Part shown: positions 39,834 to 47,593 of the stretch, in pieces | Numbering within the stretch: the first letter of the stretch is position 1 | Layout of the letters: each line of letters opens with the position of its first letter | DNA from: Pseudooceanicola marinus | GTDB lineage: Bacteria > Pseudomonadota > Alphaproteobacteria > Rhodobacterales > Rhodobacteraceae | Direction: 5' to 3' | Length of the DNA stretch: 64,000 bases | Assembly (NCBI RefSeq): GCF_020177265.1 | Contig: NZ_JAIVMC010000006.1 | Span: 62,001 to 126,000, forward strand | Notes under the pieces: model-generated | What the model saw: the letters and a program-made list of their open reading frames with translations, nothing else | Databases searched by the model: none | What the model was told of the DNA's origin: nothing | Translations under genes and position numbers: made by a program

Positions 39834-41306
39834 TCAGCGCTCAGACAGCTCGGCGATGGCGCGGCCGATCAGCTCGACCCCCTGCGGGATGCGGTTGGTC
39901 GCGATGGAGGAATAGGCCAGCCGGTAGAACTGCTGATTCTGCTCCTCCGGCTTGAAGAAGGCCTGTCCCGGTTCGATCACCACGGAATCCTCGCGCAGGC
40001 GCATCGCCAGGTCGGTGGTGCTGACATGGGCAGGCGCGCGCAGCCAGAAGGAAGACCCGCCGGTCAGCCCCGGGGTGGCCAGGTCCAACCCCACGTCCTC
40101 GATGGCCTTTTCCATCACCGCGCGGCGGCGGCTGAAGGCATCGCCCATGCGCGCCAGTTGCGCATCGAAATGGCCCAGCGACAGGAAATAGGCCATGGTC
40201 CGCTGCACATGGCCCGGCGGGTGGCGCATGATGTAGGCGCGCATCGACCGGGCCTGCCGGATGAAGGGTTCGGGCGCCACCATGTAGCCCATGCGCAACC
40301 CGGGAAAGAGCGTCTTGGAGAACGACCCGATATAGATCACATGCCCCGTCCGGTCCTGCGCCTTCAGCGCCGGGGTGGGCGCGCGCAAGGACGGCAGCTC
40401 GAACTCGTAGTCATCCTCGACCACGACGAAGTTCTCCTCCCGCGCGCGGGTCAGCAGGTCGCGGCGGCGAGCCTGGGGCATGGTGACATTGGTCGGGCAA
40501 TGGTGGCTGGCGGTGGTGAAGACTGCGTCGATGCCGCGGGGGATGTCCTCGGGCGGCAGGCCGTCCTCGTCGATGTCGACGAAATGCGTCCGGCAGCGCG
40601 ACTGGCGCAACAGGTCGCGCAGACCCGCATAGCCCGGGTTCTCCATCGCCGCCGTGCGCTCTGACGACAGCAGCAGCTGGGTGGCGATCCACAGGGCGTT
40701 CTGCGCGCCCATGGTCAGCAGGATCTCCTGCGGTTGGGCGGAGATGCCGCGCCGCGGCAGCAACTGGCGCCGCAGGTATTCGATCAGCACTGGGTCGTCG
40801 CGTTCGTAGTAGTCGGTGGTCAGCGCCTCGAAATCCTTCCGCCCCAGGGCGTTGATCGCGCAGAGCCGCCAGTTCTGATGATCGAAGAGGCGCGGATCGC
40901 TTTGGCCGTAGATGAAGGGAAAGTGATAGCTGCGCCAGTCCGGCGGGCGCACCAGCTCCGAGGGCGGGCGCTGTGGGTTGGCGATGGCCGCCTGCCAGTC
41001 CATCGCGCCGTCGGGGTCGGCGGCGGGCGCGGTGAACTGCGGCCGCCGCGGCGCGGTGTCGGCGACGAAATAGCCCGAGCGGTCGCGCGAGACGAGGAAA
41101 CCGTTGGCCACCAGCTCGTTATAGGCCAGCGAGACGGTGATCCGCGCCACCTTCAGATGCCTGGCGAAGGCCCGGGTGGAGGGCATCTTCTCCCCCGGCT
41201 GGAACCGGCCCGACAGGATGCTGTCGGCCACCAGTTGCTGGATCTGCTGTTGCAGGGTCCGTTCGCTCTCGGGGTCGAGGAAAAGGGTTTCGGTGGGGAT
41301 CGCCAT
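39834..41306 (-). CDS. tauR: MocR/GntR-type PLP-dependent regulator TauR
   Basis: The 490-residue product joins a GntR winged helix (about residues 15-80: 'MPSTRAFARHLKVARITVSL', 'DRSGYFVADT') to an aminotransferase-like domain with the PLP lysine in 'YIGSFSKTLFPGLRMGYM' (about 308-325). This is the MocR architecture. Next to tpa and the divergent tauABC it fits TauR, the taurine-responsive activator known from Rhodobacter capsulatus and Paracoccus. It precedes neither gene as an operon leader but lies 54 bases downstream of tpa on the same strand. Confidence 0.9.
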   Translation of the reverse strand: MAIPTETLFLDPESERTLQQQIQQLVADSILSGRFQPGEKMPSTRAFARHLKVARITVSLAYNELVANGFLVSRDRSGYFVADTAPRRPQFTAPAADPDGAMDWQAAIANPQRPPSELVRPPDWRSYHFPFIYGQSDPRLFDHQNWRLCAINALGRKDFEALTTDYYERDDPVLIEYLRRQLLPRRGISAQPQEILLTMGAQNALWIATQLLLSSERTAAMENPGYAGLRDLLRQSRCRTHFVDIDEDGLPPEDIPRGIDAVFTTASHHCPTNVTMPQARRRDLLTRAREENFVVVEDDYEFELPSLRAPTPALKAQDRTGHVIYIGSFSKTLFPGLRMGYMVAPEPFIRQARSMRAYIMRHPPGHVQRTMAYFLSLGHFDAQLARMGDAFSRRRAVMEKAIEDVGLDLATPGLTGGSSFWLRAPAHVSTTDLAMRLREDSVVIEPGQAFFKPEEQNQQFYRLAYSSIATNRIPQGVELIGRAIAELSER

Positions 41307-41360: not shown

Positions 41361-42743
41361 TCAGCCGGCCACGGCGGTCAGCGCCTCATCCAGGGTGCCG
41401 GTGATCTGGTCGATCTCCGCCTCGGTGGCGATCAGCGCGGGCGCCAGGCAAAGCGTATTGTTCATCCCCGGCAGGGCGCGGGCGGTCTTGCCAATGATCA
41501 GGCCGCGCGCGCGGGCCTCGGCCACCACCTGCTGCACCGCGGCCTCTGCCAAGGGCGCGCGGCTGGCGCGATCGGCCACCAGTTCGACGCCGCAGAGCAG
41601 ACCCTTGCCGCGCACCTCGCCGATGACCGCGTGGCGGTCTGCCAGGTCCCGCAGGTTCGCCATCAGCCGCGCGCCCATGGCGCGGGTGTTGGCCAACAGC
41701 CCCTCGTCCTCGATGATCCGCATGTTTTCCAGCGCCGCCGCCGGCCCACCGGTGCAGCCCGCGTAGGTGGAGATGTCGCGGAAATGGCTCATCTCGTCTT
41801 CGGGCGCTTCCTTGAAGGTATCGAAAACCTCCTCGGTGGTCACCAGGCAGGCGATGGCGGCATAGCCCGAGGCCACGCCCTTGGCCATGGTGACGAAATC
41901 GGGGCGCAGCCCGTAGTGCTGATAGCCGAACCAGTCGCCGGTGCGACCCAGCCCGCAGACGACCTCATCCAGATGCAACAGGATGTCGTATTTCGCGCAA
42001 ATCTCCTGCACCCGGGGCCAGTAGGTTTCGGGCGGCACGATCACCCCGCCGCCCGCCGTGATCGGCTCCAGGCACAGGGCGCCCACGGTATCGGGGCCCT
42101 CGCGCAGGATGACCTCTTCGATGGCATCGGCGGCGGCCAGGCCGTAGTCCTGCGCGTCCGGGTACTGGCCGCGATAGGCCAGGCAATGGGGCACCTCGAC
42201 GAAGCCGGGCGTGAAGGGGCCGTAGTCGCGCACCCGCTCCGCCTGGCCGCAGGCCGCCAGGGCTGTGACGGAAGAGCCGTGGTAGTCGCGCTGACGATAG
42301 AGGATCTTCGACTTGCGCCCGCCGTGCCGCAGGGCGGCGATCTGGCGGACCATCTTCCAGGCCTTCTCGTTCACCTCAGTCCCCGAGCTGCCGTAGTAGA
42401 CCCGGGACATCCCCGGCATCTTCTCGATCAGTTTTTCGGCAAAACGTGCCCCCGGCACCGATCCGGTGGTCTGGGCAAAGAAGTTCATCTCGACCAGCGC
42501 CTCCTTCACCGCCTCGGCGATCGAGAGCCGCCCGTAGCCCACGTTCACCGTCCAGACCCCGCCCGAGACCGCATCCAGAAACTCCGCCCCGTCGGCATCC
42601 CAGACGCGCATCCCCCGCCCCTTCACCAGAAGGCCCGGATCGCTTGTTTCAAAGGGTTTGTGCTGGGTCAGGTGATGCCAGACATGGGCACGGTCGGCGC
42701 GCACGGCGTCACTGAAACGGGTCCGGGGCTGGTCGAGGGTCAT
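41361..42743 (-). CDS. tpa: Taurine:pyruvate aminotransferase
   Basis: The start at 42743 ('MTLDQPRTRFSDAVRADRAH') is preceded by AAGGAAA; the frame stays open upstream only because it runs antisense to tauA. The 460-residue class III aminotransferase has the PLP lysine in 'FVTMAKGVASGYAAIACLV' (about residues 286-304) and the Asp in 'ILLHLDEVVCGLGRTGDW'. It converts taurine and pyruvate to sulfoacetaldehyde and alanine. Context (tauR behind it, tauABC divergent) supports Tpa over other class III enzymes. Confidence 0.9.
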   Translation of the reverse strand: MTLDQPRTRFSDAVRADRAHVWHHLTQHKPFETSDPGLLVKGRGMRVWDADGAEFLDAVSGGVWTVNVGYGRLSIAEAVKEALVEMNFFAQTTGSVPGARFAEKLIEKMPGMSRVYYGSSGTEVNEKAWKMVRQIAALRHGGRKSKILYRQRDYHGSSVTALAACGQAERVRDYGPFTPGFVEVPHCLAYRGQYPDAQDYGLAAADAIEEVILREGPDTVGALCLEPITAGGGVIVPPETYWPRVQEICAKYDILLHLDEVVCGLGRTGDWFGYQHYGLRPDFVTMAKGVASGYAAIACLVTTEEVFDTFKEAPEDEMSHFRDISTYAGCTGGPAAALENMRIIEDEGLLANTRAMGARLMANLRDLADRHAVIGEVRGKGLLCGVELVADRASRAPLAEAAVQQVVAEARARGLIIGKTARALPGMNNTLCLAPALIATEAEIDQITGTLDEALTAVAG

Positions 42744-42861: not shown

Positions 42862-42980
42862 TTGAGGTCGAAGATTGTCAGCGGGAGGCACGCTCGTAAC
42901 GCTCTCCCCGATAGACCGGCCGACCGCCCGCACCGGGCCCAGACAAGGCCGGAGATCGCAGCAACATGGAGATGGACCAG

Positions 42981-43979
42981 ATGAAACGAACCAAACTTCT
43001 GTCGGGGGCCGCGGTCCTTGGCGCGCTGATGTCGGCCAACGCGGCCTTCGCGCAGGAAGAGATCACCGTGGGCTACTTCCTCGAATGGCCGATGCCGTTC
43101 GAGTACGCCAAGGCCACCGGCATGTACGAAGAGGCGCTCGGCATGACCGTCAACTGGGTGTCCTTCGACGCCGGCACCGCCATGTCGGCGGCCATGGCCT
43201 CGGGCGATGTGCAGATCTCGGTCAGCCAGGGCGTGCCGCCCTTCGTCGTCGCCGCCTCCGCCGGGCAGAACCTGGTCGCCGCAGACGTGGCCGTCTCCTA
43301 CGCCGAGAACGACAACTGCGTCGTGGCCGAGATGCTGGAGATCGACAAGGACAGCGCGATGGAGCTGGAAGGCAAGAAGGTCGGCGTGCCGATCGGCACC
43401 GCCGCCCACTACGGCTTCCTCAAGCAGATGGACCACTTCGGCGTCGACATCACCACCATGGACATCGTCGACATGGCCCCCGCCGATGGCGCCGCGGCCT
43501 TCGCACAAGGCTCGCTCGACATGGTTTGTGGCTGGGGCGGTGCCCTGCGCCGCATGAAGGAGCATGGCAACGTCCTGCTGACCGGCGCCGAGAAGGAAGA
43601 GCTGGGCATCCTGGTCTTCGACGTGACCTCGACCACCGCCGATTTCGCCGCCGAATCCGGTGACGTGCTGACCCAGTTCCTCGCCGTCACCGCCGAAGCC
43701 AACGCCATGTGGGCCTCGGGCGAGCACACCGAGGAGATGCTGCCGGTCATCGCCCAGGACGCCGGCATGGACGAAGATGCCACCGCCGAAACGCTGGCCA
43801 CCTTCGAGTTCCCCACCGTCGAGGATCAGCTGACCGAGAAGTGGCTGGGCGGCGGCATCCAGGAGTTCATGCTGGGCGTGGCCCAGGTGTTCAAGGATGC
43901 CGGTTCCATCCCCAGCTCGCTGGACAGCTACGAAGGCAACGTCGACACCAGCTTCCTCGAAGCCGCCAACGAGATGTAA
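42981..43979 (+). CDS. tauA: Taurine ABC transporter, substrate-binding protein
   Basis: Two ATGs (42966 and 42981) are possible; the second leaves GGAG nine bases upstream and gives a clean signal peptide ending AFA-QEE. The 332-residue product is an SsuA/TauA-like binding protein: 'ITVGYFLEWPMPFEYAKATG' (early) and 'KKVGVPIGTAAHYGFLKQMD' (about residues 133-152), 'LDMVCGWGGALRRMKEHG' (about 178-195). It captures taurine in the periplasm for TauBC. Strong intercistronic hairpins separate it from tauB, a common way to make more binding protein than ATPase. Confidence 0.93.
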   Translation: MKRTKLLSGAAVLGALMSANAAFAQEEITVGYFLEWPMPFEYAKATGMYEEALGMTVNWVSFDAGTAMSAAMASGDVQISVSQGVPPFVVAASAGQNLVAADVAVSYAENDNCVVAEMLEIDKDSAMELEGKKVGVPIGTAAHYGFLKQMDHFGVDITTMDIVDMAPADGAAAFAQGSLDMVCGWGGALRRMKEHGNVLLTGAEKEELGILVFDVTSTTADFAAESGDVLTQFLAVTAEANAMWASGEHTEEMLPVIAQDAGMDEDATAETLATFEFPTVEDQLTEKWLGGGIQEFMLGVAQVFKDAGSIPSSLDSYEGNVDTSFLEAANEM

Positions 43980-44028: not shown

Positions 44029-44071
44029 CTTCCAGATAATCATAACAAACGCATAGGGGACGGTGCCGGCC

Positions 44072-44881
44072 ATGGGAGATGGGCTACACATTGAAAAGCT
44101 GTCGATGCGGTTCGACCTGCCGAACGGGTCCAGCGTCCAGGCGCTGAAGAACGTATCGCTTGATATCAAGGCGGGGGAGATGGTGTCGGTGCTGGGCCCG
44201 TCGGGCTGCGGCAAGACCACCCTGCTGAACATCTGTGCGGGGTTCCTGGCGCAGACCGAGGGCAAGGTGCGGATGAACGGCCACGAGGTCGCCGGCCCCG
44301 GCCCGGAACGCGGCATGGTGTTCCAGAAAGGCGCCCTGTTCGAATGGATGTCGGTGCGCAAGAACGTGGAATTCGGCCCCCGGATGAAGGGCATGCCCAA
44401 GGCCGAACGCGACGCCATCACCGATCACCTGCTGGGAATCGTCGGCCTGCAGGATTTCAAGGAAAAGGCCGTCTACGAGTTGTCGGGCGGCATGCAACAG
44501 CGCGTCGCCCTGGCGCGCTGCCTGGCCAACGAGCCGGACGTTATCCTGATGGATGAACCGCTGGGCGCGCTGGATGCGCTGACCCGCGAGAAGATGCAGG
44601 GCCTGGTGCTGAAACTGTGGAAGGAGACCGGCAAGACGGTGATCCTGATCACCCACTCGGTCGAGGAGGCACTTCTGCTGGGCGAGCGGCTGATCGTCAT
44701 GGCCCCGCGCCCCGGGCGCATCCACAAGGAATACCGCCTGCCCTTCGCCGAACGCGGCGTGAATGCCGACCTGCGGCAGGTGAAGAAAAGCGAGGGCTTT
44801 GCCGAGACGCGGGATGAGATCCTGTCGATGATCTGGGAGATGGAAGAGGAAATCATGGGCAGATCGGAGAGCGCGGCATGA
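44072..44881 (+). CDS. tauB: Taurine ABC transporter, ATP-binding protein
   Basis: I use the ATG at 44072 ('MGDGLHIEKLSMRFDLPNGS'); a GTG at 44063 is also possible. The 269-residue ATPase has Walker A 'GPSGCGKTT' (about residues 44-52), signature 'LSGGMQQRVALARCL' (about 139-153), Walker B 'VILMDEPLGALD' (about 158-169) and the switch in 'LITHSVEEALLLGERLIVM'. Its stop overlaps the tauC start by four bases. Confidence 0.93.
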   Translation: MGDGLHIEKLSMRFDLPNGSSVQALKNVSLDIKAGEMVSVLGPSGCGKTTLLNICAGFLAQTEGKVRMNGHEVAGPGPERGMVFQKGALFEWMSVRKNVEFGPRMKGMPKAERDAITDHLLGIVGLQDFKEKAVYELSGGMQQRVALARCLANEPDVILMDEPLGALDALTREKMQGLVLKLWKETGKTVILITHSVEEALLLGERLIVMAPRPGRIHKEYRLPFAERGVNADLRQVKKSEGFAETRDEILSMIWEMEEEIMGRSESAA

Positions 44882-46143
44882 CCGGTTGGATCGTTCTTCT
44901 TGCCTATATCGCGCTGTTTACCGCCGGGTATTTCATCGTCCTCCTGGCCAAGTGGCTGGGCCGTCCGAACCGTGATTTCACCTCGCTGAAAACCGTCACC
45001 TTCGGCGATGAAAGCGCGATCCGGCCCGACCGGGCGGCGTCCTTCCTGTCGGTTCTGGTGGTCTTCCTGATCTGGGGCGCCTTCACCGGCTCGAACTGGG
45101 TGCCCTTCCACGTGCCCGGCCCCTTCGTGGGCGACGCGCAATTCACCTACACCGCCGAAAACGCCGCCGGTGACAGCGATGACGGCACCGTCACCGTGCG
45201 GGTCCATCCGGTGGGCGAGGATGCCGAGGACCCGGAGGTCGATCCCGGCACGGGCTTTGCGCTTAATGACGTGGACACCGTGGGCGCCTGGCGCTCCACC
45301 CTGATCCGCGCCACCTCGAACGACGAGGGCGAGGATCTGACCGTGACGGCCGTGGACGGCCAGCCGATCGCGCCGGGCGAGACGGTGAAGGTGGCCGACG
45401 GCGAGGTGACGATGACGCCCAAGGGCTCGCTGAACTTCCAGCCCGCCAAGGGCCTGCAGATGGAGCCGATCTGGATGCCGCCGCCCGAGGACGTGCTGCA
45501 CCGCTTCATCGAGATCGCGACCGAAGGCTACCAGAACTTCACCCTGTGGCAGCACCTGGGGTCGTCGCTGATGCGGGTGCTGGCGGGCTTCTTCCTGGGC
45601 TCCCTGGTGGGGATCCCGCTGGGCTATGCCATGGGGCTGTCGGGCTGGTTCCGAGGCTGGTTCGACCCGATCGTCGAATTCATGCGCCCCGTGCCGCCGC
45701 TGGCGCTGATCCCGCTGGTCATCATCTGGTTCGGCATCTGGGAGACGGGCAAGATCGTCCTGCTGTTCCTGGCCGCGCTCTGGGTCATGACCATCGCGGC
45801 GCGCGCCGGCGTGTCGGGCGTCGCCATCTCGAAGGTGCACGCGGCCTATTCGCTGGGTGCGTCGAAGCGGCAGGTGCTGATGCACGTGATCCTGCCCAAC
45901 TCCCTGCCGGAGATCTTCACCGGCGCGCGGGTCGCCATGGGCGTCTGCTGGGGCACCGTGGTCGCCGCCGAACTGGTGGCGGCGCAGAAAGGCGCGGGCA
46001 TGATGATCATCGCCGCGTCGAAGTTCCAGCTGACCGACATCGTCCTGATGGGGATCATCCTGATCGGCATCATCGGCTATGGCATCGACATCGCCATGCG
46101 CTTTGCCGAGCGGGTGCTGGTGCCCTGGAAGGGCAAGATCTGA
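44878..46143 (+). CDS. tauC: Taurine ABC transporter permease with extra periplasmic Ig/cadherin-like domain
   Basis: The 421-residue product is about 150 residues longer than usual TauC/SsuC permeases (about 250-280). Residues 210-421 are the standard permease core with 'LMRVLAGFFLGSLVGIPLGY' and the EAA loop 'HAAYSLGASKRQVLMHVILP'. The extra part has two added membrane helices (about 4-24 and 55-70) enclosing, with the core, a soluble domain at about 86-192 that reads like a bacterial Ig/cadherin-like adhesin repeat: 'GDSDDGTVTVRV', 'LTVTAVDGQPIAPGETVKVA', 'GEVTMTPKGSLNFQPAKG'. Topology puts that domain in the periplasm, where it could contact TauA. Confidence 0.9.
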   Translation: MTGWIVLLAYIALFTAGYFIVLLAKWLGRPNRDFTSLKTVTFGDESAIRPDRAASFLSVLVVFLIWGAFTGSNWVPFHVPGPFVGDAQFTYTAENAAGDSDDGTVTVRVHPVGEDAEDPEVDPGTGFALNDVDTVGAWRSTLIRATSNDEGEDLTVTAVDGQPIAPGETVKVADGEVTMTPKGSLNFQPAKGLQMEPIWMPPPEDVLHRFIEIATEGYQNFTLWQHLGSSLMRVLAGFFLGSLVGIPLGYAMGLSGWFRGWFDPIVEFMRPVPPLALIPLVIIWFGIWETGKIVLLFLAALWVMTIAARAGVSGVAISKVHAAYSLGASKRQVLMHVILPNSLPEIFTGARVAMGVCWGTVVAAELVAAQKGAGMMIIAASKFQLTDIVLMGIILIGIIGYGIDIAMRFAERVLVPWKGKI

Positions 46144-46216: not shown

Positions 46217-47593
46217 TCAGGCCGCGAGGTAGACCGACTTGATGTTCACGAACTCCTTCATGCCGAAGCCACCGTGTTCGCGGCCATAGCCCGAATCCTT
46301 CACGCCACCGAAGGGCATGTTCGGAATGGCGATGTTGAACCCGTTGACCGAGATCATGCCGGTGTCGAAATGCTTCGTCGCCAGCTCGCGCGCCCGCTTT
46401 TCGTCCTTGGAGAACAGGCCGCCGCCGAGGCCATAGCGGCTGTCGTTGGCGATGCGCATGGCGTCATCCTCGTCCTTGGCCTTGATGATCGAGGCGACGG
46501 GGCCGAACAGCTCATCGTCATAGGCGGGCTGACCGGGGGCCACGTCGACCAGCACTGTCGCGGGATACCAGGCGCCCTTGCCTTCGGGGATCTCGCCGCC
46601 CACCAGGACGCGGGCGCCCTTCTTGACGCTTTCCTGGACCTGCTCGTGCAGCTCGTCGCGCAGATCCACCTTGGACATCGGGCCAAGCTTGGTGTTCTCG
46701 TCGGTGGGATCACCGGCCTGGATCGCCTTCACCTTCTCGACGTAACGGTCGACGAAGGCGTCGTAGTTCTTCTCGGTCACCACGAACCGCTTGGCGTTCA
46801 CGCAGGTCTGGCCGTTGTTGTAGATGCGGCCGGCCACGCAGGCCTCCACGGCCACGTCCAGGTCGGCATCGTCCAGCACCACGTAGGCATCGTTCGAGCC
46901 CAGCTCCAGCACCGATTTCTTCAGCTGCTCTGCCGCCTTGGCCGCGATCACCCGGCCGCCCTTGTCGCTGCCGGTCATGGTCACGCCGCGCACCAGCTTG
47001 TGGGCGATGATCTCATCCGAGGTATCGTGGTCGATGACCAGCACGGTGAACAGGTTCTTGGGCAGGCCCGCGCGTTCCATCACGTCGCGCAGCATCAGGC
47101 CGCTGCCGGTGCAGTTGGCGGCATGTTTCAGCAGGACGCCATTGCCGGCCATCAGGTTTGCCACGGCATAGCGCACGGCCTGGTAACAGGGGAAGTTCCA
47201 GGGCTGGATGCCGTAGATCACGCCGACGGGGGCATAGCTGACCACGCCAGTGCCGCCGGGAATGTCGCGTTCCTCATCCGCCAGCTCGGAGGGGCCGTTC
47301 TCGGCGGTGAAATCGCAGATCGACGCGCAGAGGTCGATCTCGTCCCGGCTGTCGCCGATCAGCTTGCCGACCTCGCGGGTCATCAGCTGAGCGAACTCTT
47401 CCTTGTTCTTTCGCAGTTCCTCACCGATGGCGCGGATCACCTTGGCGCGCTCCTCGGGGGCCTTCAGGCGCCAGGCATCAAAGGCGTCGTGACAGACCTC
47501 GACAGCCTCGAAGGCCTGGGTGCGGTCCATCAGCTCGTAGGAGCTGATCGGGCTTTCATCGACGGGGTTCACGGTCTGGATCTGGTTGGACAT
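46217..47593 (-). CDS. sad: NAD-dependent succinate-semialdehyde dehydrogenase (Sad/YneI-like)
   Basis: The 458-residue aldehyde dehydrogenase has the catalytic Cys in 'YNNGQTCVNAKRF' (about residues 256-268) and the general-base Glu in 'VLELGSNDAYVVLDDADL' (about 222-239); the ELGSNDAY form and 'YGIQPWNFPCYQAVRYA' point to the Sad/YneI subgroup. In E. coli Sad oxidises succinate semialdehyde. Beside the taurine genes a sulfoacetaldehyde or other small-aldehyde substrate is also conceivable, but the sequence alone does not show it. An AAAGGACG site precedes the ATG. Confidence 0.85.
   Translation of the reverse strand: MSNQIQTVNPVDESPISSYELMDRTQAFEAVEVCHDAFDAWRLKAPEERAKVIRAIGEELRKNKEEFAQLMTREVGKLIGDSRDEIDLCASICDFTAENGPSELADEERDIPGGTGVVSYAPVGVIYGIQPWNFPCYQAVRYAVANLMAGNGVLLKHAANCTGSGLMLRDVMERAGLPKNLFTVLVIDHDTSDEIIAHKLVRGVTMTGSDKGGRVIAAKAAEQLKKSVLELGSNDAYVVLDDADLDVAVEACVAGRIYNNGQTCVNAKRFVVTEKNYDAFVDRYVEKVKAIQAGDPTDENTKLGPMSKVDLRDELHEQVQESVKKGARVLVGGEIPEGKGAWYPATVLVDVAPGQPAYDDELFGPVASIIKAKDEDDAMRIANDSRYGLGGGLFSKDEKRARELATKHFDTGMISVNGFNIAIPNMPFGGVKDSGYGREHGGFGMKEFVNIKSVYLAA

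Follow-up and report, generated by a model that had tools for sequence, protein, structure and literature searches.

In type I ATP-binding cassette (ABC) importers, the closest described counterpart of the protein studied here is MalF, which has extra N-terminal helices and whose P2 domain has an immunoglobulin (Ig)-like fold. P2 comprises residues 91-271 and is in direct contact with MalE (PMC3150292). In the RTX adhesin AhLap a ligand-binding domain splits an Ig-like domain behind the first strand of the latter (PMC12077191), and for the Roseobacter-type bacterium R. pomeroyi PMC10130141 describes marine taurine uptake through tauABC. The subject of this work is a gene coding for a TauC-like permease in a 64,000-nucleotide stretch of Pseudooceanicola marinus DNA (assembly GCF_020177265.1, contig NZ_JAIVMC010000006.1, positions 62,001 to 126,000; the whole stretch is referred to as the window). 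The permease contains a conserved, circularly permuted Ig domain, whose function we infer below, at the position that P2 occupies in MalF.

The gene is a single open reading frame (ORF) encoding 421 amino acids. This is 146 residues more than in E. coli K-12 TauC (275 amino acids), which bears out an earlier reading, made from the sequence alone (the sequence-only reading), that the protein is about 150 residues overlong. A Pfam search detected BPD_transp_1 (PF00528) over residues 245-412 with 92 bits (cut-off 26.4), and the same family was matched at E≤0.01 by all 90 homologues. The TauC model NF007545 gave 243.9 bits over residues 195-420 (profile positions 47-273). Because this score is under the curated cut-off of 342, the permease is called TauC-like and not an accepted equivalog; relatives lacking the insert were likewise under the cut-off, with 246.9 and 260.1 bits. 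Residues 195-421 share 50% identity with E. coli TauC. The features of the gene are the following (helix TM0 from an AlphaFold2, AF2, model):

44878..46143, + strand: TauC-like ABC importer permease with periplasmic Ig-like insert
44881..44961, + strand: extra N-terminal transmembrane helix TM0 (residues 2-28)
44989..45018, + strand: conserved motif KTVTFGDESA (residues 38-47) ahead of TM1, placed on the cytoplasmic side by the topology
45031..45087, + strand: TM1, the ordinary first transmembrane helix of the permease (residues 52-70)
45115..45453, + strand: Ig-like (Big_9-type) periplasmic domain, circularly permuted (residues 80-192)
45115..45207, + strand: piece 1, the C-terminal hairpin of the canonical Big_9 unit (residues 80-110)
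45208..45267, + strand: linker from the old C-terminus to the old N-terminus, with no predicted strand (residues 111-130)
45268..45453, + strand: piece 2, the N-terminal strands of the canonical Big_9 unit (residues 131-192)
45460..46137, + strand: permease core (residues 195-420)

The insert lies in the outer (periplasmic) loop between TM1 and the permease core. Two extra helices had been thought to flank the domain. Both precede it, and since helix 52-70 lies where TauC aligns with the N-terminal region of CmpB and NrtB (CmpB aligns with residues 49-419), it is the ordinary TM1 and helix 2-28 is the sole extra one.

The insert was identified with the Big_9 profile (PF17963, cut-off 23.6 bits), which scored 29.5 bits with the whole protein, 31.0 with the segment and 39.9 after the two pieces had been rejoined, and which matched 75 of the 90 homologues at E≤0.01. 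Cadherin_5 stayed under its cut-off when the native order was used. Profile positions 58-88 of Big_9 correspond to TauC residues 77-107, i.e. to the first piece, and profile positions 15-60 to TauC residues 137-189 (segment residues 55-107), i.e. to the second. The profile order is not colinear in TauC: the pieces are swapped, and the domain is homologous to Big_9 but a circular permutant of it. The suggestion that residues of about 86-192 make up one Ig/cadherin-like unit was thus right as to kind and wrong as to a normal unit, the halves being exchanged. In the AF2 model the first piece has strands at 85-94 and 100-110, and the strands of the second piece run from 131-136 to 185-189.

The swapped order was found in 119 of 133 distinct TauC proteins and the normal order in none; the other 14 matched with one piece only. 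Rotation of the domain raised the median score of the 133 proteins with the repeat profile from 18.2 to 35.0 bits, and the optimal cut fell within 108-131 in 111 of them. Shuffling at constant composition (n=665) yielded at most 8.9 bits on the repeat model, far under both the native and the best-rotated medians, indicating that the match is not due to chance. The linker joining the pieces has a median length of 20 residues in TauC, compared with 13 between the tandem repeats of repeat proteins. (The 149 rows behind the order and linker counts were picked as full-length matches; the repeat-protein totals of 237 repeats, 187 linkers and 46 motifs include some recounts, as the loci overlap in part.) Folded alone, the domain gave a nearly all-beta model with a mean predicted local distance difference test (pLDDT) score of 92.2. 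With this model Foldseek and VIA returned weak partial rows to solved Ig-like structures, as expected of a permutant. As judged from sequence, the insert is one adhesin-type Ig unit of the Big_9/cadherin-like kind, circularly permuted; at the atomic level the two pieces probably form one sandwich.

The 46 motifs just mentioned are occurrences, some of them counted twice or more because the loci overlap, of NDxDxDGD, a repeat motif that presumably binds calcium. Its presence in the fetched repeat proteins would agree with a domain that gates transport in response to ions (calcium or salt). NDxDxDGD, a motif of our own choice that does not belong to the Pfam definition, was present at the aligned loop in none of the 133 distinct TauC proteins, only N148 and D149 being retained, and we regard ion sensing as very improbable.

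To describe how widespread the TauC proteins with an Ig domain (Ig-TauC) are, samples of increasing depth were used. Of 100 relatives, 60 belonged to the family, and 23 of these had full-length copies; within the genus the count was 8 of 22, the own genome among them. None of the 40 genomes from other families of the class had one. In the sample of the order, searched with a full-length model at E≤1e-60, 152 of 292 genomes had a match. The full form was present in 147 (E-values no higher than about 1e-194; the rows listed span the full length), and the remaining five were four with core-type E-values (G027, G260, G266 and G365) and one cut by a contig end (G286). The proportion of 147/152 makes the insert look more usual among TauC-like permeases as a whole than it is, because the more distant insert-free ones fall outside this threshold. 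The architecture had been called unusual; an Ig insert in such a permease is indeed real, but with 147 carriers in the order this genome is not alone in having it. The architecture was present in all 80 loci retained from a named collection, these being the best 80 of 584 confirmed stretches, a choice that favours full-length matches. They came mostly from Rhodobacterales, with Roseibium/Labrenzia, Limibaculum and a few otherwise labelled metagenome-assembled genomes (MAGs). Two Ig-TauC contigs (L092 and L093) are labelled as gammaproteobacterial MAGs, a case of either transfer or a binning error. Class-wide, 5 of 385 genomes contained Ig-TauC and phylum-wide 13 of 398, 12 of the 13 belonging to the same family; these two surveys were run with a three-sequence model (A2), and distant Ig-TauC may therefore be missed in them. 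Lengths were 416-436 amino acids in 103 sequences (start codons picked by us). Ig-TauC is a trait of the lineage, frequent but patchily distributed. Among the matches listed by a literature search, with subscription papers outside its coverage, no title concerned a TauC bearing an Ig domain.

Over 57 loci the mean distance between loci was about three times larger for the Ig domain than for the core (0.44 vs 0.15), as might be expected of a neutral passenger or an assembly artefact. Against this, the insert recurs in 133 distinct proteins, the lengths vary little in the 103 sequences, and the ratio of nonsynonymous to synonymous substitution rates (dN/dS), determined over 12 pairs, was 0.01-0.30 for the domain and 0-0.15 for the core, well below 1. 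The artefact is already refuted, and the explanation as a whole is highly unlikely. Positions conserved in at least 90% of 90 sequences were the membrane connectors and W138, R139, S140, L142, N148, D149 and G161; W138 and L142 no longer reached 90% when the set was widened to 117. By eye, N148 and D149 are common to the repeat consensus and W138, R139 and S140 are not. In the motif ahead of TM1, K38, T39, T41, F42, G43, D44 and E45 were invariant in the 90 sequences. This motif, KTVTFGDESA, equals the permease core in conservation and perhaps contacts the ATPase.

In a tree of the permease core (52 rows left from 174 after thinning; long branches flagged) the 27 Ig-bearing rows formed one clade with a support of 100/99. 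The motif KTVxFGD was present in 8 of 21 insert-free relatives. Seven of these adjoined the Ig clade, weakly (80/80), and the eighth (L157) was placed away from them, beside two long branches. Outside TauC, the search with the profile of the insert led to large repeat proteins. The nearest matches of the domain were colinear with it across repeat borders, which fits one repeat length cut out of register, and the open frames of those above 36 bits ranged from 1029 to 8907 amino acids. Open-frame length and domain pattern served to classify the outside matches, and the sequences of five were inspected. Such repeats were present in L150, L185 and L186, in the last alongside other sequence. Two candidates were rejected: L154, which is no repeat protein and whose 314-residue frame gave a weak and probably chance match, and the aforementioned L157, an insert-free TauC that matched through its N-terminal motif and TM1. 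In the own genome a Big_9 search at E≤0.001 found nothing, a weak negative because the TauC domain itself escaped it, and model A2 at E≤1e-4 matched TauC only, with no repeat-protein donor. A local donor, i.e. duplication from a repeat protein of the own genome, was neither found nor well excluded.

A second insert occupies the same loop in 644-residue TauC-like proteins from 4 of 149 family genomes (L027, L230, L231 and L232), one of which is located as follows:

L027:160-2091, + strand: 644-residue TauC-like permease of L027

The other three are 58-60% identical to it over the full length. These proteins have an N-terminal helix and, ahead of TM1, a motif VFGDP related to KTVxFGD; the insert of L027 is about 275 residues long and in our reading looks helix-forming. 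The L027 permease gene is part of a tauABC-like operon. The four proteins form a clade of their own (100/100) on a long branch. Elaboration of the loop after TM1 has thus occurred more than once, and this speaks for a function linked to the binding protein, the component that sits above the permease.

The following course of events is proposed. A single adhesin-type Ig repeat would have entered TauC out of register, landing in its first periplasmic loop. The simplest account has this happen once, in the ancestry of a lineage that is now found mainly in Rhodobacterales and that also has the extra N-terminal helix. As the permutation brings both chain ends to one pole, the domain could stand upright on the membrane loop, lollipop-like. 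TauC is presumably a homodimer, like its relatives NrtB and CmpB, in which case there would be two arms per transporter around the landing site of TauA, and these would most likely keep TauA in place on the permease or guide it there, in the manner of MalF-P2 with MalE. What the sequences themselves show is the presence of the domain, where it sits, the exchange of its halves, the single clade and the conservation; one sandwich at the atomic level, the dimer geometry and the docking of TauA with its benefit are inferred. That the insert is a periplasmic arm docking TauA, derived from a permuted adhesin repeat captured into the first periplasmic loop, seems to us evenly balanced. Slightly less probable, and put forward tentatively, is the wider proposal that an out-of-register repeat of a giant surface protein, turned by the circular permutation into an arm fit for insertion, became a doubled, convergent counterpart of MalF-P2 on a homodimer and in marine bacteria that consume taurine retains TauA at the channel, and that the loop after TM1 is a general slot for binding-protein docks, given the unrelated domain of about 275 residues that a separate TauC lineage has there. 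Docking is supported by the site of the insert, by the presence of TauA in 77 of the 80 Ig-TauC loci (some loci are cut by contig ends) and by the co-divergence of the Ig domain with the transporter genes and not with the aminotransferase Tpa.

The strongest alternative is structural: the Ig domain, together with TM0, would stabilise or assemble the TauC homodimer through Ig-Ig contact, with no binding of TauA. TM0 tracks the inserts: Ig-TauC has it, as do, by eye, the four rows with the helical insert, and it is not visible by eye at the N-termini of the eight insert-free KTVxFGD rows. Within the domain, variation is lowest in the membrane connectors PxHxPGPFxG and KGxQMEPIW, and the divergence of the domain follows that of the core and TauB more than that of TauA. 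Insert-free relatives, however, sit in complete tauABC-like operons, and a dimer clamp has no special need for a large upright domain; we consider such a scaffold rather unlikely, though a serious rival. The domain might also anchor the transporter to the envelope (peptidoglycan, outer membrane or a surface protein), since repeats of this type belong to surface proteins and the best outside matches are large repeat proteins. Profile searches of the protein and its homologues matched no peptidoglycan-binding family, and a single domain of some 113 residues could not span the periplasm, which makes an anchor improbable. The sequence-only reading had offered docking of TauA, scavenging of taurine and attachment to the envelope; its observation on the domain proved real and better than first stated, and its interpretation is partly supported.

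Several results weigh against a TauA-docking arm. The Ig domain co-varies with TauA more weakly than with TauB, and since TauB is cytoplasmic, co-variation with TauA does not show contact. Both partners are acidic (median net charge -9 for the Ig domain and -30 for TauA; -15 and -40 in the present copies), so that simple attraction between opposite charges does not apply. Neither E. coli TauC nor the insert-free relatives need the domain, and the fall of W138 under 90% in the wider set is unfavourable as well. On the structural side, the full-length AF2 model was moderate (best pLDDT 76.2, the other four 60.9-67.3; predicted template modelling score 0.61), and no sequence relation of the insert to MalF-P2 was detected with hhalign (probability 0.2 over 13 columns).

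The surroundings of the permease gene in the window are compatible with a taurine system:

39834..41306, - strand: MocR-type regulator with GntR and Aminotran_1_2 domains, probably TauR
41361..42743, - strand: class-III aminotransferase (PF00202, 279.9 bits), probably taurine:pyruvate aminotransferase Tpa, named from context
42966..43979, + strand: TauA-like substrate-binding protein with a Sec-type signal peptide (by eye); TIGR01729 152.6 bits, under its cut-off of 304.25
44063..44881, + strand: TauB-like ATPase; NF008421 280.1 bits, under its cut-off of 357
46217-47593, - strand: aldehyde dehydrogenase, convergent with tauC; best NCBIfam score succinate-semialdehyde dehydrogenase 451.3, SafD 276.9, both below cut-off

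The end of the TauB-like ORF overlaps the start of tauC by 4 bases, and the aminotransferase and regulator genes are divergent from the tauABC-like genes. A relative of the aminotransferase adjoins 57 of the 80 Ig-TauC loci. The regulator passed the NCBIfam PdxR model (340.6, cut-off 320), so its identity as TauR comes from context only; automated naming may mislabel it as PdxR, and the setting suggests TauR. No sulfoacetaldehyde acetyltransferase (Xsc) scored above cut-off in the own genome, and given this the aldehyde dehydrogenase may be one that oxidises sulfoacetaldehyde. Ig-TauC was also seen in six plasmid records, two of which were inspected (L201, Ruegeria conchae; L202, Paracoccus seriniphilus); their operons adjoin genes for a methyltransferase, an FAD oxidoreductase, FolD or PurU, not tpa. 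The Ig-TauC clade may include importers of methylated taurine relatives or of other substrates.

If many Roseobacter-type bacteria carry a two-armed dock, models of uptake based on E. coli TauABC miss a part. The domain is a natural circular permutation with one apparent origin, for which unpermuted repeats and insert-free sister permeases are at hand for comparison, and it makes testable, in a presumed homodimeric system, why some importers hold their binding protein.

Compared with the known systems, E. coli TauC, CmpB and NrtB differ in being without TM0 and the periplasmic domain (the latter two judged by their chains of 279-280 residues). The Big_9 and Cadherin_5 repeats stand in tandem in large proteins, whereas the TauC domain is a single copy, permuted, with a longer linker and without the calcium-type motif. 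In the split domains of RTX adhesins (FrhA, MpAFP) another domain is nested; the TauC domain is continuous over 113 residues, leaves no room for a nested domain and is itself the insert, and the structural alignment with an RTX split domain covered only model residues 50-121, mainly the second piece. MalF-P2 and the TauC insert are alike in being folded domains in a periplasmic loop just ahead of the core of a type I importer. Residues 260-511 of 9nxc_H, which we take to be MalF, align with TauC 203-416, and to judge from these ranges the insert occupies a P2-like site. P2 has about 180 residues and is found on one of two different subunits, whereas the TauC insert has about 113, is a permuted Big_9 unit and would be present on both subunits of a homodimer. 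Lacking a sequence relation to P2, the insert is not a member of the MalF-P2 type but at most its analogue, occupying the corresponding place in a TauC-like permease.
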